From an uncultured Opitutaceae bacterium (GTDB lineage Bacteria; Verrucomicrobiota; Verrucomicrobiia; Opitutales; Opitutaceae): a DNA stretch of 64,000 nucleotides. The translations under genes were made by a program, and so were the position numbers. Positions 12,817 through 58,781 of this stretch are shown here, in pieces; position 1 is the stretch's first letter, and the number at the start of each line of letters is the position of its first letter. Location of the stretch: positions 1 through 64,000 of the forward strand of contig CALFNN010000093.1 of NCBI GenBank assembly GCA_937902925.1. Reading direction: 5' to 3'. The notes below the pieces were generated by a model that was not told the DNA's origin, made no database searches, and saw only the letters and a list, made by a program, of their open reading frames with translations.

Positions 12817-14511
12817 ATGAAAACCCCCTGCACCCGCCGCTCGTTCCTCAAAGCTTCCGCCCTCGCCGCCGGCGCCGGCCTCACCGCGCCGCTCTGGCAG
12901 TCGCGGCTGTTCGCGGCTGACGCCGCCGCGCCCGGGCGGAAGATCGCGCCCGGTCCATTCCAGCCGACGTGGGAATCGCTGAAGCAAAACTACCAATACC
13001 CGGAATGGTTTCGCGACGCGAAGTTCGGCATCTGGGCGCACTGGACGGCGCAGTGCGTGCCCGAGCAGGGCGACTGGTATGCGCGCAGGATGTATCTTCA
13101 GGGCGAGCGTGCCTACGACTACCACGTCAAAACCTACGGGCATCCCTCCAGATTCGGGTTCATGGAAATCGACAATCTGTGGAAGGCCGAGAAATGGGAA
13201 CCTGCCCGGCTCATGGCGCTCTACAAGCGGGCCGGCGCGAAATATTTCTTCGGCCTCGCAAATCACCACGACAACATGGACATGTTCGACTCCGCGCATC
13301 AGGCGTGGAACTCCGTGCGCGTTGGCCCGAAGAAAGACATCATCGGCACGTGGGCGACGCTCGCGCGCGAAAGCGGCCTGCGGTTCGGCGTGTCAAACCA
13401 CGCCTCGTGGGCCGCCCGCTGGCTGCAACCCGCCTACGGTTATGACGGCGAAGGTCCGCTCGCGGGCGTGCGCTACGATGCTTACCGCCTCACGAAGGAG
13501 GACGGAAAGGGCAAGTGGTGGGAGGGGCTCGATCCGCAGGCGCTCTACACCGGTCCTTCCGTGGTGATGCCGGACGGCCTGACCAGTGCGCAGGCGGTGC
13601 GGGACTGGCAGGTCAAGAATACCAGCCTCGCCAAGAGCAACCCGATGCCGACCGACGCGTTTTGCGAAAACTGGTATCTGCGTTGCAAGGATCTGGTGGA
13701 TAAATATCAGCCGGACGTGCTCTACTTCGATACCAACGAACTGCCGCTCGGCCAGGCCGGGCTAGATGTCGTGGCGCATTACTACAATCTCAGCGCCGCC
13801 CGCAACGGGGGCAAGGCGGACGTCGTCGTCAATGGCAAGCACATCGAGCGAGACCACATCGGCGCGTTCGTCGAGGACATCGAACGCAGCACCGCCAACG
13901 CCATCCGCCCCGACCCGTGGCAGACCGACACGTGCATCGGCGACTGGCACTACAGCCGGGCGGTTGCGGAGGAAAATCGTTATGCGACGGTCGCCACCAT
14001 CGTCGCCATGCTCACCGACATCGTGAGCAAGAACGGCAACCTGATGCTGAACATCCCGCTGCGCGGCGACGGTTCGATCGATGAACATGAGGAGGCGTTT
14101 CTCGCCGGCCTGACCGCGTGGATGGACGTGAACTCCGAGGGCATCTACGCCACGCGTCCGTGGAAGATTTATGGCGAGGGCCCGTCCACGATCGCCCGCC
14201 CTGCCGCACGAGGCGCCGGGCGGGGAGCGGCTCCCCCCTATACCGCGCAGGACATTCGCTTCACCACCAAGCGCGACACGCTTTACGCGTTTGTCGGCGC
14301 TTGGCCCAAATCGCGCGTCGCGCGGATTAATAGCCTTGGCACCGCGTCGCCGCACGTCGCCGGCGCTAAAGTCACTGGCGTGTCGCTTCTCGGTTACAGT
14401 GGCAGGGTGGCTTGGACGCAAGATGAGCAAGGTTTATCCGTGACCTTACCGGATCGGGCGCCAAGCCAATACGCCGTGACGCTGAAAATCCAGGGTGTGC
14501 CGACGAAGTGA
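12817..14511 (+). CDS. GH29 alpha-L-fucosidase (4), Tat-exported
   Basis: GH29-family protein (564 aa) with a twin-arginine signal (CTRRSFLKASALAAGAGL) rather than the Sec signals of its neighbours, so it is predicted to cross the membrane folded. The barrel has KFGIWAHWTAQCVPEQGDWY, where the usual HWG is HWT, FGLANHHDNMDMFD, and candidate nucleophile Asp305 in PDVLYFDTNELPLG. LMLNIPLRGDGSIDE closes the barrel. A short Ala/Gly/Arg-rich insert lies near residues 460-475. It is closest to the fifth fucosidase at 19574-21229, which is also Tat-type. The altered HWG motif makes strict fucosidase activity less certain. Confidence 0.85.
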   Translation: MKTPCTRRSFLKASALAAGAGLTAPLWQSRLFAADAAAPGRKIAPGPFQPTWESLKQNYQYPEWFRDAKFGIWAHWTAQCVPEQGDWYARRMYLQGERAYDYHVKTYGHPSRFGFMEIDNLWKAEKWEPARLMALYKRAGAKYFFGLANHHDNMDMFDSAHQAWNSVRVGPKKDIIGTWATLARESGLRFGVSNHASWAARWLQPAYGYDGEGPLAGVRYDAYRLTKEDGKGKWWEGLDPQALYTGPSVVMPDGLTSAQAVRDWQVKNTSLAKSNPMPTDAFCENWYLRCKDLVDKYQPDVLYFDTNELPLGQAGLDVVAHYYNLSAARNGGKADVVVNGKHIERDHIGAFVEDIERSTANAIRPDPWQTDTCIGDWHYSRAVAEENRYATVATIVAMLTDIVSKNGNLMLNIPLRGDGSIDEHEEAFLAGLTAWMDVNSEGIYATRPWKIYGEGPSTIARPAARGAGRGAAPPYTAQDIRFTTKRDTLYAFVGAWPKSRVARINSLGTASPHVAGAKVTGVSLLGYSGRVAWTQDEQGLSVTLPDRAPSQYAVTLKIQGVPTK

Positions 14512-19573: not shown

Positions 19574-21229
19574 TCATACGCCAACGACGCCCGCGATTTT
19601 CAGCGCGATCGCGTGCCCGCTCGGCAATTGTTCCGGCAGCTTCACGGCCAGCCCTTGCTCGGTCTGCGCCCACGCGAGCTTGCCTCCCTGGCCAAGCAGC
19701 GTCACGTCGGCTACCTTGCGCCCGCCGAGCTGAGGTGAGCGCGTGGAAAGGCTCGCCAGAACCGCGCTCGAATCATCCGGCCGTCCGAGCAGGAAGGCGT
19801 AGAGGAATCCATTCCTGGTGGTGAACCGGACGTCCCGCGCCGTCAGCGGCGCGCGATTGTCGCGCGCCCCGGCGGATCGAGTGGCACCCGGCGAGGTGTC
19901 GGGGATGGGCGGCAGCAGTTTGAACACGCTGGTGTCCCGCACGGTGCCCGCAACGCTGGGTCCTTCGCCGCAAATTTTCCAAGGGCGGGTGCCGTGGATC
20001 CCTTCGCTATTGGCAGCCATCCATGTTGTGATCTCGGAGACGATTCCCATTTCCGTGACATCGAGCGTTCCGTCTGATTTCAGCGGAAAGTTCAGCAGCA
20101 GGGTGCCATTCCGGCTGACCACGTCGACCAGCAAGTCGATGCACTGTTTTGGCGTTCGATACCGCGCCTCCCGATCGTAGTGCCAGCCAGCAACGCAGGT
20201 GTCGGTTTGGAACGGATTGGGCCAGATTCCCTCCGCGATACCTCGCTCAAAGTCCAGCACGGCCGTCCCGTCCTGGCAGTCCTCCAGGCCTTTGCTGGTG
20301 TAAACCGCCTCCACCCGGTCCTCGTGCCACTGCGCGCTCCGATTATATAGGTGCGCCACTAATTTCAGTCCGTAGCGCTCGAACCGAATGACCCCATCGT
20401 GATACATCAGGTCCGGCTGGAGTTGGTCGATGAGATCCTGAAGCCGCAGGAGATACTGCTGCTTCCAAGACTCTGGCACATTGCCAACGTCTCCCGGCTG
20501 CGGCGCCGGTTGGTGTTTGGGGTGATAAAGATCGGCGTATTGAGGATCGGTCCCGTCATAGGGCACGCCGGCGAGCGGACCCGTCTTGTCGCTGCCAAAG
20601 CAGGTCGACATCCACTCGTAGCTTGCGTGCAGGTGCTGGCTCACCCCGAAACGCAGCCCTTGCTTCATCGCCGCGTCCTTGAACATTTGCGCGATGTTTT
20701 TCCTCGGTCCGACTGCAACTGAATTCCACCGCGGTTGGAATCGCGAATTCCACAGGTCAAAGTTGTCGTGATGCACTCCCATACTGACGAAAAACTTCGC
20801 CCCGGCCTTCCGGTAAAGCCCCAGCAGATAATCCGGGTCGAAGTTTTCGGCCTTCCAGGTCGGAATCACGTCTTTGTAGCCGGACTTCGACGGGTGGCCG
20901 TAAGTCTTGAGGTGATGGTTGTATTGTCGGTGACCCTGCAGATACATGTTGCGCGCATACCAATCACCCATCTCGGGAGCGGATTGCGGGCCCCAGTGCG
21001 CCCAGATGCCGAACTTCGCATCGCGAAACCACTCCGGACACCGGTATTGCCGGAGCGATTCACGGGTCGGTTGAAACGGCCCGGGCGCGATCGGGTAGTC
21101 GGATACGGGGGGCGTCGGACTGGCGGCCGCAGCGCACGCCCGCGATTGCCAGAAGGGAGCTGTTAAGCCCGCGCCGGTTACGAACGCGGAGGTCTTGAGG
21201 AAATCGCGCCGGGAGAAGGGCATCTTCAT
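19574..21229 (-). CDS. GH29 alpha-L-fucosidase (5), Tat-exported
   Basis: GH29-family protein, about 551 aa from ATG 21229, chosen because it opens a Tat signal (MKMPFSRRDFLKTSAFVTG). Motifs: KFGIWAHWGPQSAPEMGDWY, VSMGVHHDNFDLWN and candidate nucleophile Asp278 in PDLMYHDGVIRF, where the usual aromatic before the nucleophile is His. LLLNFPLKSDGTLD closes the barrel. It is most like the fourth fucosidase (Tat signal, DWYARNMYLQG block). It ends a minus-strand run containing a LacI regulator 68 bases upstream, and may be controlled by it. The atypical active-site neighbour makes substrate uncertain. Confidence 0.85.
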   Translation of the reverse strand: MKMPFSRRDFLKTSAFVTGAGLTAPFWQSRACAAAASPTPPVSDYPIAPGPFQPTRESLRQYRCPEWFRDAKFGIWAHWGPQSAPEMGDWYARNMYLQGHRQYNHHLKTYGHPSKSGYKDVIPTWKAENFDPDYLLGLYRKAGAKFFVSMGVHHDNFDLWNSRFQPRWNSVAVGPRKNIAQMFKDAAMKQGLRFGVSQHLHASYEWMSTCFGSDKTGPLAGVPYDGTDPQYADLYHPKHQPAPQPGDVGNVPESWKQQYLLRLQDLIDQLQPDLMYHDGVIRFERYGLKLVAHLYNRSAQWHEDRVEAVYTSKGLEDCQDGTAVLDFERGIAEGIWPNPFQTDTCVAGWHYDREARYRTPKQCIDLLVDVVSRNGTLLLNFPLKSDGTLDVTEMGIVSEITTWMAANSEGIHGTRPWKICGEGPSVAGTVRDTSVFKLLPPIPDTSPGATRSAGARDNRAPLTARDVRFTTRNGFLYAFLLGRPDDSSAVLASLSTRSPQLGGRKVADVTLLGQGGKLAWAQTEQGLAVKLPEQLPSGHAIALKIAGVVGV

Positions 21230-21297
21230 TTGCAGCTGGGAGGATTGGGGTTGGGCCAGAGCCACGCTCTGACAAATCGGGGACCTTATTCGACGTC

Positions 21298-46546: not shown

Positions 46547-47560
46547 ATGAAAAATAATACCCTCGCCGCAGTTTTCTCGGCACCACGGTTCTCGGTGCGA
46601 TCACGCTGCCCAGCGCTTTGAATCGCGTGCTGGCGGCGGATGCCGGCCCCGCTGCTCCCACGACGACCGCGCCCGCCATCCCGGTCATCGACACGCACAT
46701 CCACCTCTTCGATCCGTTTCGCCCCGGCGGCGTGCCTTGGCCGAGCGCGACAAACCCGGCGCACGCGGTAATGCAAAAAACCTCCTTGCCGTCGCGCTAC
46801 CGCCCCATCGCCGAGCCGCTTGGCATCGTGGGCGCAATCGAGATCGAATGTAGTCCGTTGCTGGAGGACAACCGTGGGTGCTGGATGTTGCAGAAAAGGA
46901 AGACATCATGGTCGGGACCGTCGGGCGCCTCGTGCCCGGCACGCCCGAGTTCAGGCCGAACCTAAAGCGGTTCCACAAGAACCCGCTTTATCGCGGGATT
47001 CGTTACGGGTTGGGAAGGAATGGAGGCAAGGAACTCGACCGGCCGGATTTCGTTGCTGACTTGAAGACACTGGCCGACGCCGACCTGGTCCTTGATACGG
47101 CGAATCCGAGCGTGGCGCTGCTGGCCGACGTCGTGCGCGTGAGCGACCGCGTGCCCAACCTGCGCATCGTCGTCGATCACCTGCCGCAAATGGTGCCGCC
47201 CACCGATTCCGCTGCGCGGGCGTCCTACGACGCCAGTATGAAGGCCTTTCGAGACCGGCCGCAAATCTACGTGAAGGGGTCAGAAGTGCTGCGCCGGGTG
47301 GACGACAAGATTCCCACGGACCTCGAATTCGACCGCCCGCGGCTAGACGAGATTCTCGACGTCTTCGGCATCGACCGCGTGCTCTACGGGAGCGACTGGC
47401 CGAACGGCGATCAGTGGCTGCCCTTCCCCGTCGGATTTAAGATCGTCCAAGAGTATTTCACGGCCAAGGGCGACTGGCGGCCGAAAAGTATTTCTGGCGG
47501 AACTCCGTCAAGTGCTACAAGTGGGTGAAACGGACCGCCGCCCAGCAGCAACTCACCTGA
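46547..47560 (+). pseudogene. Tat-exported amidohydrolase (sugar lactonase-like), frameshifted
   Basis: Metal-dependent amidohydrolase-2 family protein, of the group containing L-fuconolactonase and L-rhamnono-lactonase. Pieces in three phases reconstruct it: ATG 46547 gives MKNNT, then one phase over PRRSFLGTTVLGAITLPSAL, a Tat signal (one extra C in a CCC run would join them); the body starts VIDTHIHLFDPFRPGGVPW (metal HxH) to ECSPLLEDN; a second missing base near 46870 leads to WVLDVAEKEDIMVGTVGRLV, IVVDHLPQM and VLYGSDWPNGD (metal/catalytic Asp); a third near 47480 leads to AAEKYFWRNSVKCYKWVKRT. All three lesions look like single-base losses in short runs, so consensus error is a real alternative to decay. 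It converges with the SUMF1-cytochrome gene, with a six-base gap. Confidence 0.75.
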
Positions 47561-47565
47561 GATTC

Positions 47566-49011
47566 CTAAACGCCGGGCGGACTGAAGGCCAACCTCACCC
47601 CGTTCCAGCGCAGCTTGCGGTTGGGACGATCCGAGTGGCGCAATGTCGGGTCGGCGGATTCGGCGGCATCCGTGAAATTGCCACCACGCAGGACGCGCAG
47701 GCCGGGAGCGCTGGCGGATTCGCGTCCGTCGGCAACATTGTAGGGATAGGGTTGGTAAAGACTCGAACACCACTCCGCGACGTTACCCTCCATGTCATAG
47801 AGCCCCCATTGAGTCGGCTTCGAGGTGCCAACCGGGTGAGGCGCGTAGTTGTTGGGCGCGGCCAGCTTTGCCGCCTCTACATCCTGCATGGCCCCGCGCG
47901 CCGCCGCGGCGGCCGGCGTAACCCCGGAACTGGCCGTGAACGCAGCGTTGGGGGAATTCTCGCGCAGCCAGGCTCCCGTTGAAGTCTTGGTGGCGTCGAA
48001 CACAGCGCTCGAGCCGCCACGGGCGGCGTATTCCCACTCGGCCTCGGTCGGCAGCCGAAACAGCCCGCCGCGCACCTTCTGGTTGATCTGCGCGAGCATC
48101 GACTGGCAGTCGTCCCACGATACCTGCTCGACCGGCATCTGATCGGCCTGCGGAAATTTCTCCCCCTGATAGAGGCTCGGATTCGAGGCCACGAGCGCGC
48201 GCCATTGCGCCTGGGTCATTTCACACTTGGCCAAATAGAATGGCGCGACGGAGACGTTATGAACCGGCGTGGTGTCCAGCCGTTTATCCGAACCCAGATC
48301 AATATTGCCTCCGGGAACCAGCACCATGGCGAGGTTCAGCCCTTCCAGCACGATTTCCTTCGGCAGGCCGGACGGGGCGTCGAATTGGTTGCCGACGATT
48401 TTGAAGCCGCTGATGCCGGGATTGAGCCGCCGGGTGGCCATGAGCAGCCCGGCCTTGGCGCGGTCGCTGCCGGGGTTGTCCTTGAGCGCGGCGGCAAAGG
48501 CGTTGCGCGCGGGCTCCCATTTAGCCTGTTGCGCCAACCGCTCGCCTTCGGCCAGATGCCCCCGGGAGGACTCCATCAGCCCGGCGAGATCGCTCGCCCG
48601 TTTCGCGATGGTGCCGGCATCGAGCGTGGGATTTACCAGCGCATGAACATGATGGCAGGTTTGGCAGTTTTTCACTTCCTGCGTCTTCGGGCAGCCGCGC
48701 CGATGGCACTCGACACACAACGACGCGATCGCGTCGCCATGGACCAAGCGGTCAGGCTTGGCCGTGTTTTGCTCGTCGATCACATGATCGCGGCTTTCGC
48801 CGTGGCAGCCGACGCAGTTGGGTTGCCGCGCGTTTCGCTGCGCGAGCGTGCTGTGTTTCGAGAGGCCCCACTCGAGCGCGGAGCTGACGTGGCACCGGCC
48901 GCAGACGCCGGCGCTGACCAACTCCTGCCGCTGTCCCTGCTGGCCGAGCAACGAAACCGGAATCCAGCAGGCCAGGGCCCAGGCGAAAACCGAAGCGTTT
49001 AGACGCGCCAT
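47566..49011 (-). CDS. Tetrahaem cytochrome c fused to SUMF1/FGE-like domain
   Basis: Exported protein (481 aa) combining three parts: a signal peptide (about 1-23), a multihaem cytochrome c region with four CxxCH motifs (37-41 CGRCH, 66-70 CVGCH, 99-103 CVECH, 116-120 CQTCH) and a short TPR-like helical linker, then a C-terminal SUMF1/formylglycine-generating-enzyme-like domain (about 205-481; LVPGGNIDLGS, PVEQVSWDDCQ, RLPTEAEWEYAARGG, GNVAEWCSSLYQPYP, RVLRGGNF). The Cys pair near the C-terminus of true FGEs is absent (RGGNFTDAAESADPTLRHS), so it is probably not a sulfatase activator. ATG 49011 is preferred over ATG 49026 because GGAGG precedes it. Last gene of the Tat-enzyme operon; start overlaps the upstream stop. 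Possibly an electron sink. Confidence 0.88.
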   Translation of the reverse strand: MARLNASVFAWALACWIPVSLLGQQGQRQELVSAGVCGRCHVSSALEWGLSKHSTLAQRNARQPNCVGCHGESRDHVIDEQNTAKPDRLVHGDAIASLCVECHRRGCPKTQEVKNCQTCHHVHALVNPTLDAGTIAKRASDLAGLMESSRGHLAEGERLAQQAKWEPARNAFAAALKDNPGSDRAKAGLLMATRRLNPGISGFKIVGNQFDAPSGLPKEIVLEGLNLAMVLVPGGNIDLGSDKRLDTTPVHNVSVAPFYLAKCEMTQAQWRALVASNPSLYQGEKFPQADQMPVEQVSWDDCQSMLAQINQKVRGGLFRLPTEAEWEYAARGGSSAVFDATKTSTGAWLRENSPNAAFTASSGVTPAAAAARGAMQDVEAAKLAAPNNYAPHPVGTSKPTQWGLYDMEGNVAEWCSSLYQPYPYNVADGRESASAPGLRVLRGGNFTDAAESADPTLRHSDRPNRKLRWNGVRLAFSPPGV

Positions 49012-50129
49012 TGTTCCTCCAGCCATTGGTAGTTTTCAGGGAGCCAGCCCAGTCCAGCCAGCCGCGTGAGCTTCCTGGCCGAATCCAGCGCCGCGTGTTC
49101 GTCGCGGGTCATCTGGTCGTAGCGCGTGATCGCGGCGCAGTTGTCCCTGACGAACTGGTCGTTGACCATCCCGGCCATCGTGCAGCTCAGAAACGGCTTC
49201 GAGTAGACGTAGCGCATGGCGGCCTGCGGCAGGCTCTCATCCGGCAGTTGGTTCAAGCTCTTGGCCAATTCGGCAACGGCCGCGGGCAGGATCGCCCGGG
49301 AGCCCGGCGTCGAGTTGAAGAGCATGAAGCGGGAGTTCTCCGGGTTGGAGTCCGACTTCAACCGCGGGTCGAGGCCGACAATCGAACCGGCGGCGAGCGC
49401 CTTGATGCCGATCAGCCCGATGCCGCGTTCAACGGCGGCGGGGAGGAACTGGCTGTAGTCCGCCTTCGCGTGAATGAAATTATAGGGGAGCATCAGGTAG
49501 TCCAAGCCTTCGAGCTCCTTCAGCGCGGTCATCATCGGCCCTTCCAGATGGCAGGCAATACCGATGGCGCGGATCTTTCCCGCCTCCTTGGCGCGACGAA
49601 GCACGTCCCATTGCTCCAGCAGCTTGTAGTCGAACGTCACCGTCTCGCTGCGAATGCGATAGAGATCGATGTATCCGCCATAGAGCCTTGCCAGCCGGTC
49701 AATGTTCTGCCCGATGAACTCCGGGTTGTCGTAGGCGCCGGCGACGAGGACCTTGTCGCGTTTCGGTTTGATGAGCTTCGCCAGCGGCTCCCACTGGCCC
49801 TCGTGTTCGTAGACATCGAGAAGATTTACGCCGAGGTCCATCGCCAGGGAAATCTGCCGGTCGCGACGCGTCTGACCCTCGGCATTGAGGACATTTCTGA
49901 TGCCGCCACGCAGTTTGTAGGCGCGATCCGTGTGCGACCCGAAGGCCAGCAGTGAGACGTTCAACCCTGTCTTCCCCAGCGGGCGATACACCATGCCGCC
50001 GCGGCGGAACTCGCCCGTCGCGACCAGGGGCGTCGCCGCGGTTGCAGTTCGCGGCAGCATCGAGGCCGCCAGTCCGACGCCAGCGCACTGCATGAATCGC
50101 CGACGAGTCATACGCGGTTTGTGGTCCAT
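48999..50129 (-). CDS. Tat-exported aldo/keto reductase-like protein
   Basis: Aldo/keto-reductase-fold protein (376 aa) with a Tat signal (MTRRRFMQCAGVGLAASML). The barrel shows YRPLGKTGLNVSLLAFGS, LGVNLLDVYEHEG (Asp and Tyr of the catalytic tetrad), DKVLVAGAYDN (Lys) and YIDLYRIRSE, where the usual tetrad His is replaced by Arg. AKRs need NAD(P)H, scarce outside the cytoplasm, so an exported member must either bind cofactor before Tat export or have a different role. It lies 35 bases after a dehydratase gene and overlaps the cytochrome-SUMF1 start by 13 bases. A GGAGAA precedes the ATG. Confidence 0.87.
   Translation of the reverse strand: MDHKPRMTRRRFMQCAGVGLAASMLPRTATAATPLVATGEFRRGGMVYRPLGKTGLNVSLLAFGSHTDRAYKLRGGIRNVLNAEGQTRRDRQISLAMDLGVNLLDVYEHEGQWEPLAKLIKPKRDKVLVAGAYDNPEFIGQNIDRLARLYGGYIDLYRIRSETVTFDYKLLEQWDVLRRAKEAGKIRAIGIACHLEGPMMTALKELEGLDYLMLPYNFIHAKADYSQFLPAAVERGIGLIGIKALAAGSIVGLDPRLKSDSNPENSRFMLFNSTPGSRAILPAAVAELAKSLNQLPDESLPQAAMRYVYSKPFLSCTMAGMVNDQFVRDNCAAITRYDQMTRDEHAALDSARKLTRLAGLGWLPENYQWLEEQWRV
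49016..49020 (-). promoter_or_regulatory. Ribosome-binding site deciding the cytochrome-SUMF1 start
   Basis: On the minus strand GGAGG lies four bases before ATG 49011, inside the coding end of the upstream reductase. A second in-frame ATG at 49026 would place this sequence within the gene, so 49011 is the better start. Confidence 0.6.
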
Positions 50130-50164
50130 AGGTTGTTCTCCGGCTTGCGAATGGCGTCTGCGGT

Positions 50165-51454
50165 TTAGCGCTCGATACGCGCGGTCATCTTGTCGAGCGC
50201 ATCGCGGTCGATTTCGTAGCCGAGCCCCGGTTTGGTCGGCGCCTGAACGTAGCCGTCGGCATCAATCCGGAACTTGTCCTTCATGTAGGGGCGGTCGGAC
50301 GCGCCCTGCGGCACCGTCATCTCGAACCAGCGATTATTCGGCATGGCGAGCTCGAGGTGAAAATGCACCGCGTGGTCGAACCCCTCGCCCCAGTTGTGCG
50401 GCGCGCATTCCAGCTCGAAGCACTCCGCCAGGTGTCCCAACTTCAACCCGCCGGTGATGCCGCCGACGTTGTCGACGATGAACCGGACGCCATCGACGGC
50501 GCCGCGCCGGATATATTCCGGATAGTCATAGATCGAGGTCAGGAACTCGCCGATGTGAACCGGAATGTCGAGGTCGTGGCAAAGTTCCGCCAATCCTTCG
50601 ATGTCCTTCGTCGGCAGCGGATCCTCGTAGAAAATGTAGCCCAGGTCCTGAATGGCCCGGCCGACCTTGATTGCCTCCTCGCGGGTGTAAACGCCGACCG
50701 GATCCATCATCAAGGTGAAGTCGTCGCCCGCGGCCTTGCGCACGGCGCGGCAAACCTCGATGTCCAGTTTGTAGTCGTGGCCGCCATTCGGCGAGGGCGG
50801 GTGGATCTTGTAGGCCTTGAACCCCTGCGTCTTGATCAGCTGCACCTCCTGCACGAACTGTTCGACGGTGGCGTGGTGCTGCGTGCTGGCATACGCCATC
50901 ACCTTGGTGCGATAGGCGCCGAGGATGCGGTAGACCGGCAGGCCGACCGCCTTGCCCAGAATATCCCAGAGGCAGTTGTCGATCGCGGAGGCGTAGGAGC
51001 TTTGTCCAAGACGCCGCTTCTCCGGAGTCCATTGCGAGGTGAGCGACGGCAGATCGAGCACGCTGCGACCAACGCACGCTCCCTTCGCGAATTCCAGCCA
51101 GCCGAGGTTGCTCCAATTGGGATGCCAATACCGGTCGCCGAGCGTGTAGTTACCCTCGAGGCCGCTGTTCGTGACGATCGAGGTAATCCGCGTGAACCCG
51201 CCGTAGAGCGCCGCGGCGACCCCCTGCCCGCGCGGGCTGTTCCCATCGATCGTCGGCGGAGCGGCGGGGTTGCGCCGGCGGTCCAGCACGTAGACCTTCA
51301 CCTCCTTGATCGTGAGATCGGGCAAGTCGGCTGCTTTGGCTCCGACCGCCTCAGCGGCGGCGCGTGCCGGGTTGGTCAGGACGGAAACTCCGGCGACCGC
51401 ACCGAGCGCCGTCGTGCCAAGGAACTGGCGTCGCGAAAGAGTGCGTTCAAGCAT
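50165..51454 (-). CDS. Tat-exported enolase-superfamily sugar-acid dehydratase (1)
   Basis: Mandelate racemase/muconate-lactonizing-type enolase-superfamily member (429 aa), the group of L-rhamnonate, L-fuconate and galactonate dehydratases. Tat signal TLSRRQFLGTTALGAVAG to ARAAAE; capping domain to about 170; barrel with KAYKIHPPSPNG, metal ligands Asp in LMMDPVGVY, Glu in FYEDPLPT and Glu in HIGEFLTS, and general-base His in APHNWGEG. The residues for Mg2+ and proton abstraction appear intact, so it should be active. It is paralogous to the gene at 52669-54057, with shared leader ARAAAEAxGxKxADLPDLTIKEVK. Gaps in the operon are 35-39 bases. Substrate not determinable. Confidence 0.88.
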   Translation of the reverse strand: MLERTLSRRQFLGTTALGAVAGVSVLTNPARAAAEAVGAKAADLPDLTIKEVKVYVLDRRRNPAAPPTIDGNSPRGQGVAAALYGGFTRITSIVTNSGLEGNYTLGDRYWHPNWSNLGWLEFAKGACVGRSVLDLPSLTSQWTPEKRRLGQSSYASAIDNCLWDILGKAVGLPVYRILGAYRTKVMAYASTQHHATVEQFVQEVQLIKTQGFKAYKIHPPSPNGGHDYKLDIEVCRAVRKAAGDDFTLMMDPVGVYTREEAIKVGRAIQDLGYIFYEDPLPTKDIEGLAELCHDLDIPVHIGEFLTSIYDYPEYIRRGAVDGVRFIVDNVGGITGGLKLGHLAECFELECAPHNWGEGFDHAVHFHLELAMPNNRWFEMTVPQGASDRPYMKDKFRIDADGYVQAPTKPGLGYEIDRDALDKMTARIER

Positions 51455-51492
51455 GAGATTCTCTTGTTGATCGTGGACTGTCAGTGCCCTAT

Positions 51493-52629
51493 CTACGCCC
51501 TCAAGTAGGGCTTCAGGTAGTTGTTAAGGGCGTCGCGGATTCCTTTGTCGTCAAGGCGCGGACCGCCAGGCGCAGCTCCGCCGCCACCGCCTCGCCTGCC
51601 GCGTCCACCGCCTGCCGCCGGCTCCCCGGCGACTTCGACTCCCATGGCGGGCGGGGCGTTGCGCGACGTGACCGTGGGTTTGAAGACGCCGCGGGCAATC
51701 AAAACGCTGTCGCGGCCAGTGGTGCCAAGACTATTGAAGGCGAGGATGCGGCCAAACATGTCGAAAGCCTCCTGCCGTCGGCCGGCGTGCCACAGGTCGA
51801 AGGCGGCGGCATAGACATCGGCCAGGGCAACGACCGGGCAATGGCCGGAGAATCCGAGTTCCATCTCGTTGATCATCGTCCGCACGCCTTGCCCGGAAAA
51901 CACCTTCATCTCGTCGTTGGTCCGCCGGCGGATCTCGGCGATGCGCTGCAAGGGGCCGCCGCCGGCAGCCGCTTCGTCCTTCACCTGCCGCACGGTCGGG
52001 ACCGTCTTGAAGATTTCGACGACCAAATCCACGCTCATATTTTCCTGCGTCTGCACGAACAGCGGAAGCGCGGTCATCTTCCCGACCTGCTGGTAATAAT
52101 CCAACAGGACCTTTTCGTCGGAGACGCCCGGGGGCGGCAGGGATACGATGGCGTCGGCGCCGTTCTCGGCTGCGTGCCTGGCGTAGCGTTCGACCTCCTT
52201 CATGTCGCCGGTCTTCGACTGCACGCCGACGACGAGGGTGGTGGCGCCGCCCCGGCCAGCCGCGAGGATGGCCTCGGTGCCGGCCATGCGTTCCGCCTCG
52301 GTGAGGGTTGTCCAGCCGCTCGCAATTTGCGGCCAGACGAAACCGTGCACGCCACCCCGATTGCAGAACGACACCTGCGCCGCCAGCGACTCGACGTCGA
52401 GTTTGTCGCCTTCCATAAACGGCGTCGATCCGATGGGGAAGAGGCCGCGCAACTGTTTCCGACCGTGGCCCGGTATCGGTGCCGCTTTGGCCGGAGCGCT
52501 CGGTTCCGCGGCGCGCACGGAACCGATGCCGGTCAGCGCGAGGCCCAGGGTGCCCGCGCCCAAGTATTGTAGGAAATCCCGCCGGGGAAATGCGGTGGAT
52601 CGAACGGATGGCTGTGAATTGGGGTTCAT
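51493..52629 (-). CDS. Tat-exported DHDPS/NAL-family lyase
   Basis: Dihydrodipicolinate synthase/N-acetylneuraminate lyase-fold protein (378 aa) with a Tat signal (TAFPRRDFLQYLGAGTLGLA). Schiff-base Lys217 is present in TVRQVKDEA, as is the GSTPFMEGDKLD opening. The usual Tyr of the YNxP block is missing: the strand reads LPLFVQTQENMS. In non-phosphorylative sugar-acid pathways such enzymes split or dehydrate 2-keto-3-deoxy acids produced by dehydratases like its two flanking neighbours. A Gly/Arg-rich insert lies near 340-360 before the final helix. Missing Tyr suggests altered chemistry. Confidence 0.85.
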   Translation of the reverse strand: MNPNSQPSVRSTAFPRRDFLQYLGAGTLGLALTGIGSVRAAEPSAPAKAAPIPGHGRKQLRGLFPIGSTPFMEGDKLDVESLAAQVSFCNRGGVHGFVWPQIASGWTTLTEAERMAGTEAILAAGRGGATTLVVGVQSKTGDMKEVERYARHAAENGADAIVSLPPPGVSDEKVLLDYYQQVGKMTALPLFVQTQENMSVDLVVEIFKTVPTVRQVKDEAAAGGGPLQRIAEIRRRTNDEMKVFSGQGVRTMINEMELGFSGHCPVVALADVYAAAFDLWHAGRRQEAFDMFGRILAFNSLGTTGRDSVLIARGVFKPTVTSRNAPPAMGVEVAGEPAAGGGRGRRGGGGGAAPGGPRLDDKGIRDALNNYLKPYLRA

Positions 52630-52668
52630 GGATTTATTTTTCTTGAGTGTTTCTCTTTGGCCGGGGGC

Positions 52669-54057
52669 TCAGCGGTCGATCCGGATGAGCACTTTTTCCA
52701 TCGCGTCGCGGTCGAGCACGCAGCCGAGGCCGGGCGCGGTCGGGGCATGCACGTAGCCCTCCTTGTCGATGCGGAATTGATCCTTGAGATAGACGCGGTC
52801 CGTCAGCGTCTGCGGATAGGGCATCTCGAACCAGAAGCAGTTGGGCATCGCCAGCTCGATCTGGAACTGCATCGCGAGGTCGAAGCCGTTGCCCCAGTTG
52901 TGCGGCGTGCACGGCATGCCGAAGGCCTCGGCGAGCTGCGCGATTCGCATCGAGCCGCTGATGCCACCCACGTTGTCGCCGATCAACCGGACGACATCCA
53001 TCGCGCCGCGGCTAATGTATTCGGCAAAAGCCTGAATCGTGTAGAGGAATTCGCCGACCTCGATCGGCACGTCCAGTTTCTGGCGCAGCTCGATGAGCCC
53101 CTCGATGTCTGTCGAGGGGATCGGATCCTCGAACGAAACGTAGCCGGTTTCCTCCAACGTGTGGCCGACCTTCAGCGCCTCGAAGACGTTGTAGCGCTGC
53201 ACAGGATCGAACAGGAGCGTGAAGTCCTCGCCGACCGCCTTGCGCACCGTCTTGATCTCCTCGATGTGCCCGAGATACGCCGGAATCTCCCCGCCCGACG
53301 CATGCTGGCCGCCGCCGGGATGGATCTTGTAGCCACGGAAGCCCTCGCTTTTCGCCTTCACGGCTTCTGGTGCGAAATCCTCGACGTTGGCCAGGTGCAG
53401 CGAACTCGCGTAGGCCAACACCCGATCCTTCGTGCCGCCGAGCAGCTTGTAGATCGGCCGGTTCACCGCCTTGCCGAGGATGTCCCAGAGCGCCACCTCG
53501 ATGATCGAGTTGTGAATGTCGGCATCGGATGCCTGGGTCAGAAGCCGGCCGTTGGGGTAGGCGAAGCCGCCAATGAATCCGGCTGGGCCGCGCCCACCGC
53601 GGCCGGCGCCGCCGCCTCGCGGAGCGACATTCGGACCGATGCGCGCATCGCCGCCGCCGCCACCGCGACCGCCACCGCCAAAGCCGCGCCGTGGCTGCCG
53701 CGTCGTCACCGTCGGCAACAGATCGAGCACGTTCTTGCCGAGGCACACGGCCTTGGCGTATTCCAGCCAGCCGGCGCCGCTCGAACGATTGCCGAGCGTG
53801 TAGTTTCCCTCGACGCCACTGGCCGTCACGATCGAGACGATCTCGCCGCCTTCCGAGCTGTTGATGCGGCGGATGTCACCGAGATTGGTGACATACATTT
53901 TGACCTCCTTGATCGTGAGGTCGGGCAAATCGGCGGGCTTGCCTCCGATCGCCTCGGCGGCGGCGCGGGCGGGGTTGACCAACATCGACGCTCCCGCGAC
54001 TGCACCGATGGCGGAAGCGCCGAGGAATTCACGGCGGGACAAGTTGCGATTCGACAT
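52669..54057 (-). CDS. Tat-exported enolase-superfamily sugar-acid dehydratase (2)
   Basis: Enolase-superfamily protein (462 aa). ATG 54057 is fixed by AGGAG at 54066-54070 and by the Tat signal that follows at once (NLSRREFLGASAIGAVAGAS). Barrel motifs: FRGYKIHPGG, LLFDPVQRY (Asp), SFEDPIPST (Glu), EVGEFLYT (Glu) and TPHNWGNG (His). A 40-residue Gly/Arg-rich block at about 121-160 interrupts the capping domain and is absent from its paralogue. First gene of the minus-strand operon dehydratase, lyase, dehydratase, reductase, cytochrome-SUMF1. Two dehydratases side by side may serve two epimeric acids such as L-rhamnonate and L-fuconate. Confidence 0.88.
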   Translation of the reverse strand: MSNRNLSRREFLGASAIGAVAGASMLVNPARAAAEAIGGKPADLPDLTIKEVKMYVTNLGDIRRINSSEGGEIVSIVTASGVEGNYTLGNRSSGAGWLEYAKAVCLGKNVLDLLPTVTTRQPRRGFGGGGRGGGGGDARIGPNVAPRGGGAGRGGRGPAGFIGGFAYPNGRLLTQASDADIHNSIIEVALWDILGKAVNRPIYKLLGGTKDRVLAYASSLHLANVEDFAPEAVKAKSEGFRGYKIHPGGGQHASGGEIPAYLGHIEEIKTVRKAVGEDFTLLFDPVQRYNVFEALKVGHTLEETGYVSFEDPIPSTDIEGLIELRQKLDVPIEVGEFLYTIQAFAEYISRGAMDVVRLIGDNVGGISGSMRIAQLAEAFGMPCTPHNWGNGFDLAMQFQIELAMPNCFWFEMPYPQTLTDRVYLKDQFRIDKEGYVHAPTAPGLGCVLDRDAMEKVLIRIDR

Positions 54058-54065
54058 GGTAGGAT

Positions 54066-54070
54066 CTCCT
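54066..54070 (-). promoter_or_regulatory. Ribosome-binding site of dehydratase 2
   Basis: AGGAG on the minus strand, eight bases before ATG 54057. It separates the true start from a long in-frame leader that opens further upstream. Confidence 0.65.
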
Positions 54071-54365
54071 GGGGTTGTTCTGAAAGAATCTGTTCGACTG
54101 CGCTCGCACGCGGAGTCGCGCTCTAATGGGGGTGCGCAGTTTTGAGTATTTGCGACGTCTGCCTGCAAGACGGAAAAAAGAATGGGACGGTCCGATTTAT
54201 TTTTCCGACCGCCCGTGGAAATTAGCTGGAGCCATTCCTCGTTGCTCTTACCCTCGCCGCTCGGCCTTGAGCTTGGCTGACTGTCGTTGTCGTTTCGGCA
54301 GCCTTTCATTCCTGAGCTGTTACCCTCTTTCTGCCCCGCCTCCCTGAGTGCGACTCCGCTTCTCC

Positions 54366-54578
54366 CTACCCTGCAGCCGACCGGTGCCCGGCCTTGGGTG
54401 CTCGCGTTCGCGGCCACGCTGGCCGTCATCACTTATACAGACCGCGTCTGCGTGTCGCGGACCAAGGGCTCCATTGCGGCCGACGTGGGTTTATCCAGCG
54501 TGCCGATGGGCTACGTTTTTGCCGCGTTCACCATCGCCTATGCCCTGTTCGAAATTCGGTGCGGCGGGCTCGCGAGCG
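54366..54578 (+). pseudogene. MFS transporter N-terminal remnant
   Basis: About 70 codons (LQPTGARPWVLAFAATLAVI, TYTDRVCVSRTKGSIAADVG, MGYVFAAFTIAYALFEI) matching the first two membrane helices of the intact MFS gene at 57293-58612, then sequence breaks at RCGGLASEF. DNA identity to the intact gene is visibly high but far from complete, so this is an old duplicate. It sits between the divergent dehydratase promoter and the PQQ gene. Confidence 0.8.
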
Positions 54579-54720
54579 AATTCGTGTTATGTCTGAATTC
54601 AACATTGCCGGGCCGGAATATTTCCCCCTCCTTGCCCGGCCTCAGCCTTACCTCAGCTCCAACCGACAAGCCGAACTGAGCCCACGATTGCCCGCCAGAC
54701 GTGCGCCCGGTCGCCCCCCT

Positions 54721-57129
54721 ATGAAATCCCACTGCCCCCGACGCTCTCCGAGAAATCTCCTCGCGACCGATTTTGTCCCGTCAACCCAGTGGTCCGCGAG
54801 CCGCCTGAAGGGCTTGGGGATCGCTTTGAGCCTAGCGGTGAACTCCGCCTGGTCGCAAGCGGCGGACCGTCCGCGGTTGGGCGCACTTGGGCCGGAGGGG
54901 ATAGAGGTCCCGCGGGCGTTTGTCCAAGTCTGCTCGCTTTGTCATGGTAACGATGCACGCGGCACGGACCGCGCGGCTCCACTGGTCAACAACAGCCAGC
55001 TCCGCAATCTGTCCGAGAGCGAGATCGCCGACATCATTCTGAAGGGAAAAGGCAAGATGCCCGCGTTCCCGCTGCCTCGGGAAGATATTGAGGCCCTCGC
55101 CCATTACATCCGGCTCATTAATGCGCCGGCACCGCGGACGGCCGTTCCGGGCAGTCCGCAGACCGGCGAGCGCCTGTTCTTTGGCAGCGCGCAGTGCGCC
55201 ACCTGCCACATGGCCAACGGTCTGGGCAGCTCGAACGGACCGAATCTTTCCGACGTCGGCCGAAGGTTGCGCCTCCCGGACCTGACGCAATCGCTCGTGG
55301 ATCCCGGCGCCCGCATCACTACTGGATATGAAATGGTGACCGTGACTATGAATGACGGAACCACGTTGCGTGGATTCGCCCGTGCCCGCGGCAGCCACGA
55401 TCTGGTCCTGCAGTCCGACGAGGGAAAACTGCACCTGCTGGCAGATACCGAATACCGCACGCTGACTTCGGACAAGAACTCCGCGATGCCTGCTTTTGCG
55501 GGAACGGACGACGAGCGGCGCGATCTCCTCGCCTTCCTGAGCCACCAAACGGGGATCGGCGTGGGGCCTCTGACCGAACCGCAGGCGCCGGTCACGCCAG
55601 CGCAGATCGACGCCATCGAGCACCCGAAGATAGGCGACTGGCCGACCTACAACGGCAGGCTGGATGGAAACCGCCACAGCGTTCTCGACCAAATCAATCT
55701 GCAGAATGTCTCGAAGATGCAACTGCAGTGGACCTACACCATTCCATTCTTCGGCCTGGAGACGACCCCGATCGTGACGAACGGCGTGATGTTCGTCACC
55801 GGCAACAATCAGGTCTATGCCCTGAGCGCACGGACCGGGCGCGAGATCTGGCGATACGAACGGCCCAAGAGTGTCGGCGCCACGATTTCGAGCGATGCTG
55901 CGATCGGCGTCAACCGCGGGGTCGCCGTCCTTGGTGATCGCGTCTTCTACCTGACCGACGATGCCCATCTGCTCGCCCTGGATCGCCTGACAGGCGCGCT
56001 GCGCTGGGACGTGTTTGCCTACACGCCCGGCGACCAAGGGCGCTACGGCGGCACGGCCGCGCCGCTCGTGGTGGGCGATCTCGTCATCACGGGGGTCAGC
56101 GGCGGCGACGACGGGATTCGCGGCTTCGTGGCCGCCTTCAAGGCCACGACGGGAGAGCTCGTGTGGAAACTGTGGACGATTCCGCAGCCGGGCGAGCCCA
56201 CCGCGGAAACCTGGAAGGGCGCGGCCCTCGCGCTCGGCGGAGGCGCGACGTGGCTCAGCGGGAGCGCCGACGTGGAATCAAACACCGTCTATTGGGCCGT
56301 GGGCAATCCCCACCCGGACACGGATGGCGACGAACGGCTCGGCACCAATCTCTACACGAACAGCGATCTCGCGATCGACCTGAGGACCGGGCGGCTGCTG
56401 TGGTATTATCAGTTCACCCCGCACGATCTGCATGATTGGGATGCGAACCAGCCGATCGTCCTGATAAACGAAAAGTGGAAAGGGCAGGACCGGCAGCTCC
56501 TGCTCCACGCCAACCGCAACGGCTTCCTCTACGTGTTGGACCGAAAGGTCGGCCAGCCGCTGCTGGCCAACCGCATGGTGGACAAGCTCACGTGGGCGAG
56601 CGGAATCAACGAGGAGGATTGGACTCCCCGGCTTCTGCCCAACAACGAAACGACCGCGCAGGGAGTGAAAACTGCCCCGGCCGTGCGCGGTGCCACGAAT
56701 TGGTATTCCACCGCCTACAACCCGGCGACGCGGCTTTATTATGTGATGACCGTGGAAGACTACACCATCTATCGTAAGGCGGACGAAGGCGGATTCGGCC
56801 GATATAGCAATCCCGTCGATCCGGCGCAAAAAATCCTTCGCGCTTTCGACATCGAAACGGGCAAGGCTGTCTGGCAAATCGACCTGCCCGGACCGGTGCA
56901 GGCAAACTACTCGGGCGTTCTGTCCACCGCGGGCGGCTTGCTCTTCTTCGGCGAAAGCAGCGGGGGATTCGCCGCCGTCGATGCCAGGACCGGCAAGTAT
57001 CTCTGGCACTTCGAGGCGAACCGCCCGATCAAGGCCTCGCCGATGACTTACAGCGTCAATGGCAGGCAATACGTCGCGATCGCTTCCGGGGCGAACATCC
57101 TGTCCTTCGCCCTCCCCGAAAACCCGTGA
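54721..57129 (+). CDS. Cytochrome c/PQQ-dependent dehydrogenase fusion
   Basis: Periplasmic quinoprotein of 802 aa from ATG 54721 (an in-frame start further upstream would run through the MFS remnant). Leader with a hydrophobic segment (RLKGLGIALSLAVNSAWSQA), a first cytochrome c module with CSLCH (71-75), a second with CATCH (159-163), then an eight-bladed PQQ propeller from about 290: DWPTYNGRLDGNRHS, GLETTPIVTNGVMFVTG, HDLHDWDANQP and GGLLFFGESSGGFAAVDA. PQQ alcohol/sugar dehydrogenases usually carry haem at the C-terminus or on a separate protein; here two haems precede the propeller. It could oxidise sugars or alcohols to lactones or aldehydes feeding the divergent Tat-enzyme operon. Confidence 0.9.
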   Translation: MKSHCPRRSPRNLLATDFVPSTQWSASRLKGLGIALSLAVNSAWSQAADRPRLGALGPEGIEVPRAFVQVCSLCHGNDARGTDRAAPLVNNSQLRNLSESEIADIILKGKGKMPAFPLPREDIEALAHYIRLINAPAPRTAVPGSPQTGERLFFGSAQCATCHMANGLGSSNGPNLSDVGRRLRLPDLTQSLVDPGARITTGYEMVTVTMNDGTTLRGFARARGSHDLVLQSDEGKLHLLADTEYRTLTSDKNSAMPAFAGTDDERRDLLAFLSHQTGIGVGPLTEPQAPVTPAQIDAIEHPKIGDWPTYNGRLDGNRHSVLDQINLQNVSKMQLQWTYTIPFFGLETTPIVTNGVMFVTGNNQVYALSARTGREIWRYERPKSVGATISSDAAIGVNRGVAVLGDRVFYLTDDAHLLALDRLTGALRWDVFAYTPGDQGRYGGTAAPLVVGDLVITGVSGGDDGIRGFVAAFKATTGELVWKLWTIPQPGEPTAETWKGAALALGGGATWLSGSADVESNTVYWAVGNPHPDTDGDERLGTNLYTNSDLAIDLRTGRLLWYYQFTPHDLHDWDANQPIVLINEKWKGQDRQLLLHANRNGFLYVLDRKVGQPLLANRMVDKLTWASGINEEDWTPRLLPNNETTAQGVKTAPAVRGATNWYSTAYNPATRLYYVMTVEDYTIYRKADEGGFGRYSNPVDPAQKILRAFDIETGKAVWQIDLPGPVQANYSGVLSTAGGLLFFGESSGGFAAVDARTGKYLWHFEANRPIKASPMTYSVNGRQYVAIASGANILSFALPENP

Positions 57130-57292
57130 GAGCAAACGCGAACTGTAGTCGCGCCGCAGTTGCGGCGAAATACTCTGGCCGCATGGCCGGTCGCAACTAT
57201 TCTCGCCGCGAGTTTTTTCGCCGCGGTTGCCTGTCCGCCACAATCGCCGGCCACTGGCCACAAAACCCCCGCCACCCCATGCCCCGGTCCTC

Positions 57293-58612
57293 ATGAACGC
57301 AACACCGACTCCCCCGCCTCCAGTCGGTGCGGCCCTGCAACCGACTCGCGCGCGCCATTGGGTGCTGGCGTTTGCCGCGACGCTGGCCGTCATCACTTAC
57401 ATCGACCGCGTTTGCATGTCGCAGGCCAAAGTCTCCATCGCCGCGGACTTGAGTCTGACCAGCGTGCAGATGGGCTACGTCTTTGCGGCGTTTACCATCG
57501 CCTATGCCCTGTTCGAGATTCCGGGGGGCTGGCTTGGCGACAAGATCGGTCCGCGCAAGGTGCTCCTCCGCGTGGTGCTCCTGTGGTCGTTCTTCACCGC
57601 CGCCACCGGACGCGCTTGGAACCTGGCCTCGTTGATGGTCACGCAGTTTCTTTTCGGCGCGGGTGAAGCCGGCGCCTTTCCCAATTTAGCCAAGGCGTTC
57701 ACCAACTGGTTGCCGGCGCCCGAGCGCAACCGGGCCGTCAGTGTCATGTGGCTGTGCACACGCTGGGGCGGGGCCGTCACGCCACTGCTGGTCGTGTGGG
57801 TTATCTCCCTGGTGGGATGGCGATGGGCCTTCGCGGTGTTCGCCGTCCCCGGCGTCGTGTGGGCGATTGTTTTCTACTGGTGGTTTCGCGATCACCCGCG
57901 CGACCACCCGAGCGTGAATGCGGCGGAGCTGGCATTGTTGAGCGAAGGGCGCCCGGCAGCCACCGCGCGCCCGCAAGTTCCGTGGTCAAAAATCCTGCGC
58001 TCGCGCACGGTGTGGCTGTTGTTCATGCAATATTTCTGTTTCGGCTACGGCTGGTATTTCTACATCACGTGGCTGCCGACCTACGTGAAAGAGGCGCGCG
58101 GACTCGAACTGCAAAAGGGCGCACTGCTGGCCGGCATTCCGCTTTTCTTCGGCGGGTTCGCCTGCATTTTTTCCGGCTGGTTCGCCGGCTGGCTCGTGCG
58201 GCGCGGCTTCGCGCTCGCCCGTGTCCGCCGGGGCTTGGCGTTTGTCGGTTATGGCGGAGCTGCGGCCATGCTGCTGCTCTCGCCGCGCATCGCTGACCCG
58301 GTCTGGGCGATGGTGGCGATGGGCCTCGCCAGCTTCTCACTCGATCTCACTTTGCCCGTCTGCTGGCGCACGGCCATGGACGTGGGCGGAAAATATGCCG
58401 GCACCATTTCCGGCACCATGAACATGGCCGGCCAGATCGGCGGCGCGACCGGCCCGATCGTCGTCGGCTACATCCTCCAATACATGAATCACAACTGGAC
58501 GCTTACCTTTGCTATCTCGGCGGCCATCTACGTGCTCGGCGGACTGTGCTGGATGGGAATCGATCCGGTGACGCCGATCGAGCAAGCGGAGCCGGGCGCG
58601 CGCCCAAAGTAG
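57293..58612 (+). CDS. MFS transporter, anion:cation symporter type
   Basis: Inner-membrane transporter (439 aa, about 12 helices) of the major facilitator superfamily, resembling the hexuronate/galactonate (ExuT/DgoT-like) symporters. Motifs: TYIDRVCMSQAKVSIAADL in helix 1, GGWLGDKIGPRKVL (loop 2-3 motif A) and FGAGEAGAFPNLAKAFTNWLP, the signature of sugar-acid carriers. ATG 57293 follows a GC-rich leader without a strong ribosome-binding site; in-frame ATG 57227 gives an unlikely extension. It follows the PQQ dehydrogenase by 163 bases and likely imports the sugar acid or keto-acid product. A broken copy of its 5' end lies before the PQQ gene. Confidence 0.9.
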   Translation: MNATPTPPPPVGAALQPTRARHWVLAFAATLAVITYIDRVCMSQAKVSIAADLSLTSVQMGYVFAAFTIAYALFEIPGGWLGDKIGPRKVLLRVVLLWSFFTAATGRAWNLASLMVTQFLFGAGEAGAFPNLAKAFTNWLPAPERNRAVSVMWLCTRWGGAVTPLLVVWVISLVGWRWAFAVFAVPGVVWAIVFYWWFRDHPRDHPSVNAAELALLSEGRPAATARPQVPWSKILRSRTVWLLFMQYFCFGYGWYFYITWLPTYVKEARGLELQKGALLAGIPLFFGGFACIFSGWFAGWLVRRGFALARVRRGLAFVGYGGAAAMLLLSPRIADPVWAMVAMGLASFSLDLTLPVCWRTAMDVGGKYAGTISGTMNMAGQIGGATGPIVVGYILQYMNHNWTLTFAISAAIYVLGGLCWMGIDPVTPIEQAEPGARPK

Positions 58613-58631: not shown

Positions 58632-58781
58632 TCACTTCGGCAACCGCGCGACCAGATCGCCATGTGGCCTCGCGATGACATGTGCGGTCACGAGCCTGCC
58701 AAAGTTGCCCACCGCTTGGGCGCCGGCGTCCACGGCCGCCTCCACAGCCGCGACATCGCCCTTCACGATCACCGTCGGTAT
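58632..58781 (-). pseudogene. Bacterial microcompartment shell protein (BMC-H) C-terminal remnant
   Basis: A 49-codon minus-strand frame, too short to show up as a normal gene: IPTVIVKGDVAAVEAAVDAG then AQAVGNFGRLVTAHVIARPH and GDLVARLPK, stop at 58632. This is the C-terminal half of a BMC-domain hexamer protein (PduA/EutM type): the TVIVKGDVAAVEAAVDAG strand-helix and the HVIARPH end are diagnostic. The N-terminal half has been replaced by the 3' end of the response regulator gene, whose stop (58769-58771) lies inside it in another phase. No start codon or ribosome-binding site remains in place. Confidence 0.82.

Follow-up and report, generated by a model that had tools for sequence, protein, structure and literature searches.

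Twin-arginine leaders on a recurring enolase-DHDPS gene pair of Opitutaceae point to a possible periplasmic sugar-acid pathway

RESULTS

Four adjacent genes open with twin-arginine leaders

The 64,000-nucleotide stretch of DNA analysed here (the window) comes from an uncultured Opitutaceae bacterium (contig CALFNN010000093.1, positions 1 to 64,000) and is part of contig C93 of the source genome (G000; 6.0 Mb, 105 contigs, 95% complete). It carries four consecutive minus-strand genes, each of which opens with a twin-arginine (RR) leader. ENO1 (52669-54057) belongs to the mandelate racemase (MR) subgroup of the enolase superfamily and is of the acid-sugar dehydratase type (MR_MLE_C, 172 bits). 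It is followed by a DHDPS-family protein (51493-52629; DHDPS, 44 bits) with a Gln/Lys-x-Glu active site, a probable 2-keto-3-deoxy-aldonate dehydratase, by a second enolase-superfamily dehydratase, ENO2 (50165-51454; MR_MLE_C, 181 bits), and by AKR (48999-50129; Aldo_ket_red, 63 bits), which has the fold of an aldo/keto reductase. A quinoprotein-type dehydrogenase and an MFS transporter lie to the right of this row, and a tetrahaem fusion protein and a lactonase-like amidohydrolase to its left. A first-pass annotation of the window had proposed four such genes with leaders for export by twin-arginine translocation (Tat), and this was borne out by the leaders, the family matches and a TatC gene in the genome.

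The N-terminus of ENO1 reads MSNRNLSRREFLG, with the leader motif SRREFLG, and that of ENO2 reads MLERTLSRRQFLG, with SRRQFLG. The DHDPS leader contains ...AFPRRDFLQ (motif PRRDFLQ) and the AKR leader ...MTRRRFMQ (motif TRRRFMQ). Each of the four proteins has a motif of the RR-x-[F/L] type in its n-region, and the h-region after it is uncharged. The general Tat profile TIGR01409 scored ENO1 at 25.5 bits and ENO2 at 21.5 bits, both above its cut-off of 16.7, and ENO1 was the top-scoring of 11 matches in the genome. The sequence R-R-x-[FL] was found in the leader of all 17 exported-type DHDPS proteins, even where identity to the window protein is as low as 32%; these come from 16 places in 10 of 252 family genomes and from Sphingomonas natans. 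A stricter rule that requires the motif plus a hydrophobic stretch passes 15 of the 17. It missed L037 and L040, in which the RR motif is visible but the h-region contains an Arg. Among close clustered enolases, S-R-R is present in 9/9.

As a check for bias, a second search was made with only the mature part of DHDPS in 384 genomes of the class. Matches were observed in 37 genomes at 43 places, of which 30 were available as loci and were read; the other 13 had no locus and lie outside this reading. In a tree of 48 DHDPS proteins, one clade of 29 (support 99/96) contains all 27 proteins called Tat-like by the rule together with two that the rule missed, and the remaining 19 are leaderless and fall outside it under midpoint rooting. 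L083 (contig end) and L056, L057 and L086 (copies) were left out of the tree and of the active-site comparison, and L032 and L033, which repeat L029, were dropped from the alignments.

In the source genome itself, two of four DHDPS-family proteins (one of them DapA-like) and four of seven MR-family proteins lack a leader. The coexistence of such leaderless paralogues suggests that the leaders are more than chance. From these leaders we infer that ENO1, ENO2 and DHDPS are exported to the periplasm by Tat. As a background, a loose rule of motif plus hydrophobicity was applied to the other genes of the window and the fetched loci (codon-position bias of at least 0.25; DHDPS, enolase and amidohydrolase families excluded; L030 omitted as a copy of L099), and it called 20 of 168 Tat-like, both AKRs included. 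N-terminal twin-arginine motifs are also found on two alpha-L-fucosidases of the window (12817-14511, plus strand; 19574-21265, minus strand), one of which passes the loose rule. Because of these 20 genes and the two fucosidases, Tat export as such seems to be common here. Besides ENO1 and ENO2, the genome encodes a third RR-leader protein of the enolase superfamily at another place (G000:C10:25443-26093, L053; leader ITRRDWIKF).

The enolase and DHDPS genes form a recurring core

ENO1 homologues (E<=1e-50) are present in five of the 252 family genomes, every time beside the core DHDPS, which is 60-82% identical to the window protein in the four other genomes. The corresponding chance figure is 1/C(252,5) = 1.2e-10, with genomes that are related to each other. 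An MFS gene lies near the close pair in four of these five genomes and a dehydrogenase gene likewise in four, so that the neighbourhood of anion:cation symporter (ACS)-type MFS and quinoprotein-type dehydrogenase proposed by the first-pass annotation recurs as well. Its expectation that the whole set would co-occur holds for the core of enolase and DHDPS; AKR and ENO2 are accessory. ENO2 and the window-type AKR were found only in G000 and G092 (family search of the 252 genomes; fetched loci), so that AKR occurs in two of five family genomes carrying the close pair. The exported DHDPS of G128 and G129 has a distant enolase (26% identity, 76-82 bits) next to it, which likewise bears an RR motif.

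Within the fetched stretches, an enolase gene neighbours eight of the 17 exported DHDPS genes. Those without one are second copies in G000, G015, G016 and G184 and the genes of G075, G079 and G081, and several of them have a dehydrogenase as neighbour instead. A secreted family of about 440 amino acids adjoins enolase-less exported DHDPS genes at L029:14034-15431, L034:15447-16778, L039:5246-6574 and L040:11626-12948; the one member that was scanned showed no Pfam match. Other families of the class contain a second large clade of DHDPS proteins with Tat leaders (L059-L068, L073), in which the leader is mostly TRRQM[LI].

Outside the phylum, a DHDPS match was observed in 3 of 397 Sphingomonadaceae genomes. 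Two are close and carry the enolase-DHDPS pair with both leaders, namely Sphingomonas natans and a second genome, G852. The scan of genome contigs used a single protein as query and returned two loci. The S. natans locus also encodes an alpha-L-arabinofuranosidase, an aldose 1-epimerase, AraD1 (over its cut-off), a dehydrogenase of the membrane glucose-dehydrogenase type and an aldehyde dehydrogenase whose best match is 2,5-dioxovalerate dehydrogenase (87 bits, cut-off 750). A plasmid search with DHDPS matched 127 of 72,556 records, none of which covers 80% of the query; identity was 28-29% in the five listed.

Active sites of the enolases, AKR and DHDPS

The Asp/Glu/Glu metal ligands and the His-Asp dyad are kept in ENO1, ENO2 and six close relatives. 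String patterns for these residues find no match in the distant enolases of G128 and G129. For acid-sugar dehydratases of the mandelate racemase subgroup, a K-x-K base motif is the rule; ENO1 and ENO2 carry K-x-H, as does the aligned structure 1rvk. Their best NCBIfam matches are acid-sugar (aldonate or aldarate) dehydratases, with all equivalog scores below cut-off. The structure model of ENO1 (mean pLDDT 51.5) was too poor for a fold search.

The catalytic tetrad of aldo/keto reductases is Asp-Tyr-Lys-His. In alignments with 4xk2 and with another Tat-leader AKR of G092, which retains both residues, the tetrad Lys and His are absent from both members of the window type (G000 and G092). A reductase step, as implied by the first-pass annotation, is therefore not supported by AKR, which has lost these residues and occurs in so few genomes with the pair. 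In G092, a metallo-beta-lactamase-fold protein, possibly a further lactonase, lies between ENO2 and AKR (L031:1471-2532, minus strand); it is not so placed in the window.

The predicted model of the window DHDPS (mean pLDDT 66.5) has the DHDPS/NAL fold (VIA-align top Z 25.4, rmsd 3.1, 263 residues aligned). The fifty comparisons listed lie within one Z unit of each other, and the L-2-keto-3-deoxyarabonate (L-KDA) dehydratase structures 7c0c and 3fkk are not among the matches listed. All four canonical DHDPS proteins aligned (DapA-like L045 and L046 and two linked to bacterial microcompartments) contain the aldolase Tyr and the [ST]TGE motif. Both are missing in the window protein and all aligned exported relatives. 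In 46/46 non-canonical proteins, exported or not, Gln replaces the Tyr and the Schiff-base Lys is followed by x-Glu, which is the combination that characterises L-KDA dehydratase (Schiff-base Lys, Gln for Tyr, Glu at Lys+2). Counted from the motif positions, these residues are Gln193, Lys217 and Glu219 in the window protein. As described in the accessible part of PMC9795676, the L-KDA dehydratase of Azospirillum brasilense has the replacements Gln143 and Glu173, together with Lys171, and dehydrates its substrate without cleavage; according to the same part, Glu173 is not conserved across other DHDPS/NAL enzymes. Because the aldolase Tyr is absent and Gln and Lys-x-Glu are present as in L-KDA dehydratase, the exported DHDPS is likelier to be a dehydratase than a lyase. 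The keto-acid lyase step that the first-pass annotation had assigned to it does not agree with these residues.

Neighbouring genes and traces of decay

The dehydrogenase (54721-57129, plus strand) has two CxxCH motifs and a propeller like that of PQQ (pyrroloquinoline quinone)-dependent alcohol dehydrogenases; its best NCBIfam match is 'acido-empty-quinoprotein group A', below cut-off. The MFS transporter (57227-58612, plus strand) is of the ACS type and matches TIGR00893, 'D-galactonate transporter', with 247 bits (cut-off 395). Between ENO1 and the dehydrogenase, upstream of the latter, there is a 5′ fragment of another MFS gene (54164-54580, plus strand; tblastn against the MFS of G092, 57% over 143 aa), which points to a local duplication and deletion.

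On the left, a secreted protein (47566-49026, minus strand) does contain the four CxxCH motifs of the 'tetrahaem cytochrome' named earlier. These are fused to a C-terminal FGE-sulfatase (SUMF1-type) domain, and its association with the row is one of position only. In G092, the start of a homologue adjoins AKR. The amidohydrolase (46547-47540, plus strand; Amidohydro_2) had been expected to start with PRRSFLG after repair of one frameshift. One repair does not suffice: the leader with the first part, the middle and the end lie in three reading frames with at least three breaks, and a stop stands just before PRRSFLG in the frame of the leader. The frameshifts may be an assembly error. An RR-leader lactonase does exist in relatives and as an intact paralogue in the source genome (G000:C92:3281-4213; 51% identical to the G184 protein). 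Of 12 genomes tested, 10 have an RR motif on their best lactonase-like match, among them all seven with the close pair; the best match of G128 and that of G129 lack it. In G184, G252 and G852 the gene for this match is no more than about 7 kb away from the pair, and in others it is elsewhere. The only NCBIfam match, L-fucono-1,5-lactonase, is below its cut-off of 400, with 52.8 bits for the window fragment and 81 for S. natans.

At the end of a response-regulator gene, and convergent with MFS as in G092 and G015, lies the remnant of a bacterial-microcompartment (BMC) shell gene (58635-58775, minus strand; C-terminal 47 of 231 aa, 83% identical to the protein of G092; PF00936 match C93:58665-58781). 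At its place, G092 (L031:8029-9779) and G015 (L029:4756-6524) have an intact two-domain BMC shell gene and an overlapping gene for a canonical DHDPS aldolase (L031:8658-9779 and L029:4756-5895), whose C-terminal extension (...IVQEVMKQF...) seems to resemble an encapsulation peptide. BMC shell genes are also present in G000. Because the amidohydrolase is broken, MFS is represented by a fragment as well and only a remnant of the shell gene is left, the window locus appears to have lost parts that its relatives have kept.

Further left in the window lies a rhamnogalacturonan-type polysaccharide locus with GH106, GH28, GH43, rhamnogalacturonan lyase, PcRGLX, Glyco_hydro_88 and three alpha-L-fucosidases, one at 10953-12794 adjoining that at 12817-14511 (plus strand) and one at 19574-21265 (minus strand).

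DISCUSSION

A possible periplasmic double dehydration

Leaders, families, active-site residues and recurring linkage can be seen in the sequences, and from them we derive a proposal for export, substrate, order of steps, import and activity. In this proposal, an aldose freed from plant polysaccharide would be oxidized to the lactone by the quinoprotein-type dehydrogenase in the periplasm, with electrons passing to haem. The lactone would be opened by the exported amidohydrolase, and the exported enolase-superfamily enzyme would dehydrate the aldonate to a 2-keto-3-deoxyaldonate. A second dehydration via a Schiff base, most likely by the exported DHDPS, would give a 2,5-dioxo acid, which for a pentose would be alpha-ketoglutarate semialdehyde. 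Uptake of an acid product would then fall to the ACS-type MFS. A quinoprotein with haem, a metal lactonase, a metal-dependent enolase and a Schiff-base enzyme require no NAD(P), ATP or CoA. A periplasmic place would fit these steps because none of them needs such a cofactor.

We give a probability of about 0.43 to this reading, namely that a sugar-acid catabolic module was moved from the cytoplasm to the periplasm by Tat, with a Weimberg-like double dehydration and import of the acid product. It is favoured because the core is free of such cofactors and because the neighbours in S. natans fit an L-arabinose pathway. A more demanding form is possible, but we would hold it only tentatively: here the whole double-dehydration pathway would be periplasmic and run by exported enzymes without nucleotide cofactors alone, a dioxo or keto acid rather than the sugar would be taken up, and the exported DHDPS clade would have a single origin and have been passed between Verrucomicrobiota and Sphingomonadaceae.

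Several observations weigh against the proposed double dehydration. The Tat profile check suggested by the first-pass annotation was positive for ENO1 and ENO2, and DHDPS and AKR gave no TIGR01409 match at E<=0.001; with DHDPS not called by the profile, its leader is taken as real because the RR motif is conserved. The second base of L-KDA dehydratase, Glu200, is not conserved and is Gly in the window protein (alignment with 7c0c). For this reason the window DHDPS is regarded only as working like an L-KDA dehydratase and is not filed as one. Leaderless relatives also carry the Gln/Lys-x-Glu signature, which therefore probably predates export. For nine of the 17 exported DHDPS genes, the fetched stretch contains no neighbouring enolase gene, and BLAST clustering revealed no related enolase for the second exported clade in the 8 genomes, out of its 11, that had fetched surroundings. 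The pointers to a substrate differ: L-arabinose is suggested by the S. natans locus, rhamnose, fucose and others by the polysaccharide genes of the window, and galactonate by G852, which near its pair has a galactonate dehydratase that lacks an RR leader, and not the arabinose genes. The window locus itself is partly decayed.

The first enzyme raises a further difficulty. The dehydrogenase had been described as a dihaem-PQQ enzyme, and the two haem motifs are indeed there. A vicinal Cys-Cys near PQQ has a role in PQQ-dependent dehydrogenases, and the pair seen in 1kv9 and 6zcv is absent in 7/7 homologues seen (the window protein and six others). A search made without a positive control covered 11 genomes that encode an exported DHDPS, among them G000, and found pqqC in none. 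A repeat over 337 phylum genomes gave eight matches, six of them over cut-off, and again none in G000, which is 95% complete. PQQ dependence is thus unproven and PQQ binding appears doubtful; PQQ may be scavenged, or the dehydrogenase may not use it.

Alternative readings

The main rival to a periplasmic double dehydration is a pathway split between the two compartments, which we consider rather unlikely. Oxidation, lactone opening and one dehydration would take place in the periplasm, MFS would import the 2-keto-3-deoxy acid, and a cytosolic BMC-linked DHDPS aldolase would cleave it, yielding pyruvate and lactaldehyde in the case of L-rhamnose or L-fucose, and the exported DHDPS would have a side or binding role. 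In G092 and G015, MFS converges on the BMC shell gene and the canonical DHDPS with Tyr, STGE and the seemingly encapsulation-like C-terminus. Import of the undehydrated keto-deoxy acid is suggested because this aldolase gene sits across from MFS, which also counts against double dehydration. The shell-gene remnant in the window and its rhamnogalacturonan-type locus (GH106, GH28, rhamnogalacturonan lyase, alpha-L-fucosidases, Glyco_hydro_88) agree with such a split. On the other hand, G184, G252 and G852 all have the pair and showed no BMC match, the window no longer has the shell gene, and the Lys, Gln and Glu conserved in the exported DHDPS would go unexplained.

It is unlikely, to a greater degree, that the exported folds act on other extracytoplasmic compounds, such as aromatic or glycoside-linked acids, and that the pathway is an artefact of family names. 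The equivalog matches of the enolases and DHDPS in NCBIfam all lie far below their cut-offs, the closest solved enolase structures are vaguely annotated, and the exported DHDPS genes without an enolase neighbour, including the second clade where examined, would fit this explanation. The linkage to a lactonase-like amidohydrolase, an acid-type MFS, an aldose epimerase and an arabinofuranosidase argues for sugar acids instead.

More improbable still is a function of the exported DHDPS as a periplasmic keto-acid retro-aldolase, whose aldehyde might be handled by the exported AKR. The DHDPS fold, the conserved Schiff-base Lys and the position of AKR next to the cluster would be expected, whereas the aldolase Tyr and [ST]TGE are missing in all 46 non-canonical proteins, neither AKR member has the tetrad Lys and His and AKR stands outside the recurring core, and NADPH supply in the periplasm would be problematic. 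Finally, it is very improbable that the enzymes are cytoplasmic and their twin-arginine motifs spurious: the leaders are known from sequence alone and TIGR01409 misses two of them, but the motif is kept in 17 DHDPS proteins and nine enolases, follows a single clade, is missing from paralogues in the same genome and is accompanied by TatC.

Relation to known pathways and meaning

The oxidative L-arabinose (Weimberg-type) pathway of A. brasilense is taken as cytoplasmic and NAD(P)-using. As far as the literature excerpts on it extend, it resembles the proposed periplasmic double dehydration in its dehydrogenase, lactonase, dehydratase and Schiff-base dehydratase steps and in the shared Gln, Lys and Lys+2 Glu. 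Against the same excerpts, the window differs in its Tat leaders, in starting with a quinoprotein-type enzyme, in having an enolase-superfamily protein as first dehydratase and in the lack of Glu200. The dehydroquinate dehydratase that acts in quinate oxidation by acetic acid bacteria is periplasmic. In these bacteria, quinate is oxidized to 3-dehydroquinate and then dehydrated to 3-dehydroshikimate, as stated in the available part of PMC9171043. In that account their oxidative fermentation is similar in that the dehydrogenases face the periplasm and that, in the quinate case, dehydration follows. It is unlike the window in its enzyme families and in being mostly oxidation only. Non-phosphorylative sugar-acid pathways of the SAR202 type share enolase-superfamily acid-sugar dehydratases with the window; the dehydrogenases proposed for them in the main text of PMC10444878, as far as it was available, depend on NAD(P), and that text does not use the word 'periplasm'. 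Fucose and rhamnose catabolism in BMCs of Planctomycetes and Verrucomicrobia (PV-BMC) has a parallel in the shell genes of G000 and the shell remnant at the window locus. According to the accessible part of PMC8857213, PV-BMC loci have an AraD-like aldolase, unlike the two relatives G092 and G015, in which the aldolase next to the shell gene is of the DHDPS family. A Tat-exported aldonate or sugar-acid dehydratase or DHDPS pathway was not among the matches listed in the literature search, which covers subscription titles thinly and is weak evidence on this point.

That sugars are oxidized in the periplasm is well established; the breakdown of sugar acids beyond the first oxidation is generally taken as cytoplasmic. 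If the proposed double dehydration is true, sugar-acid breakdown may start before uptake, so that transport would be needed for acids only, and reactive keto or aldehyde intermediates would arise outside the cytoplasm. For such proteins, labels such as 'dihydrodipicolinate synthase' or 'mandelate racemase' would then hide a different location and probably a different reaction.

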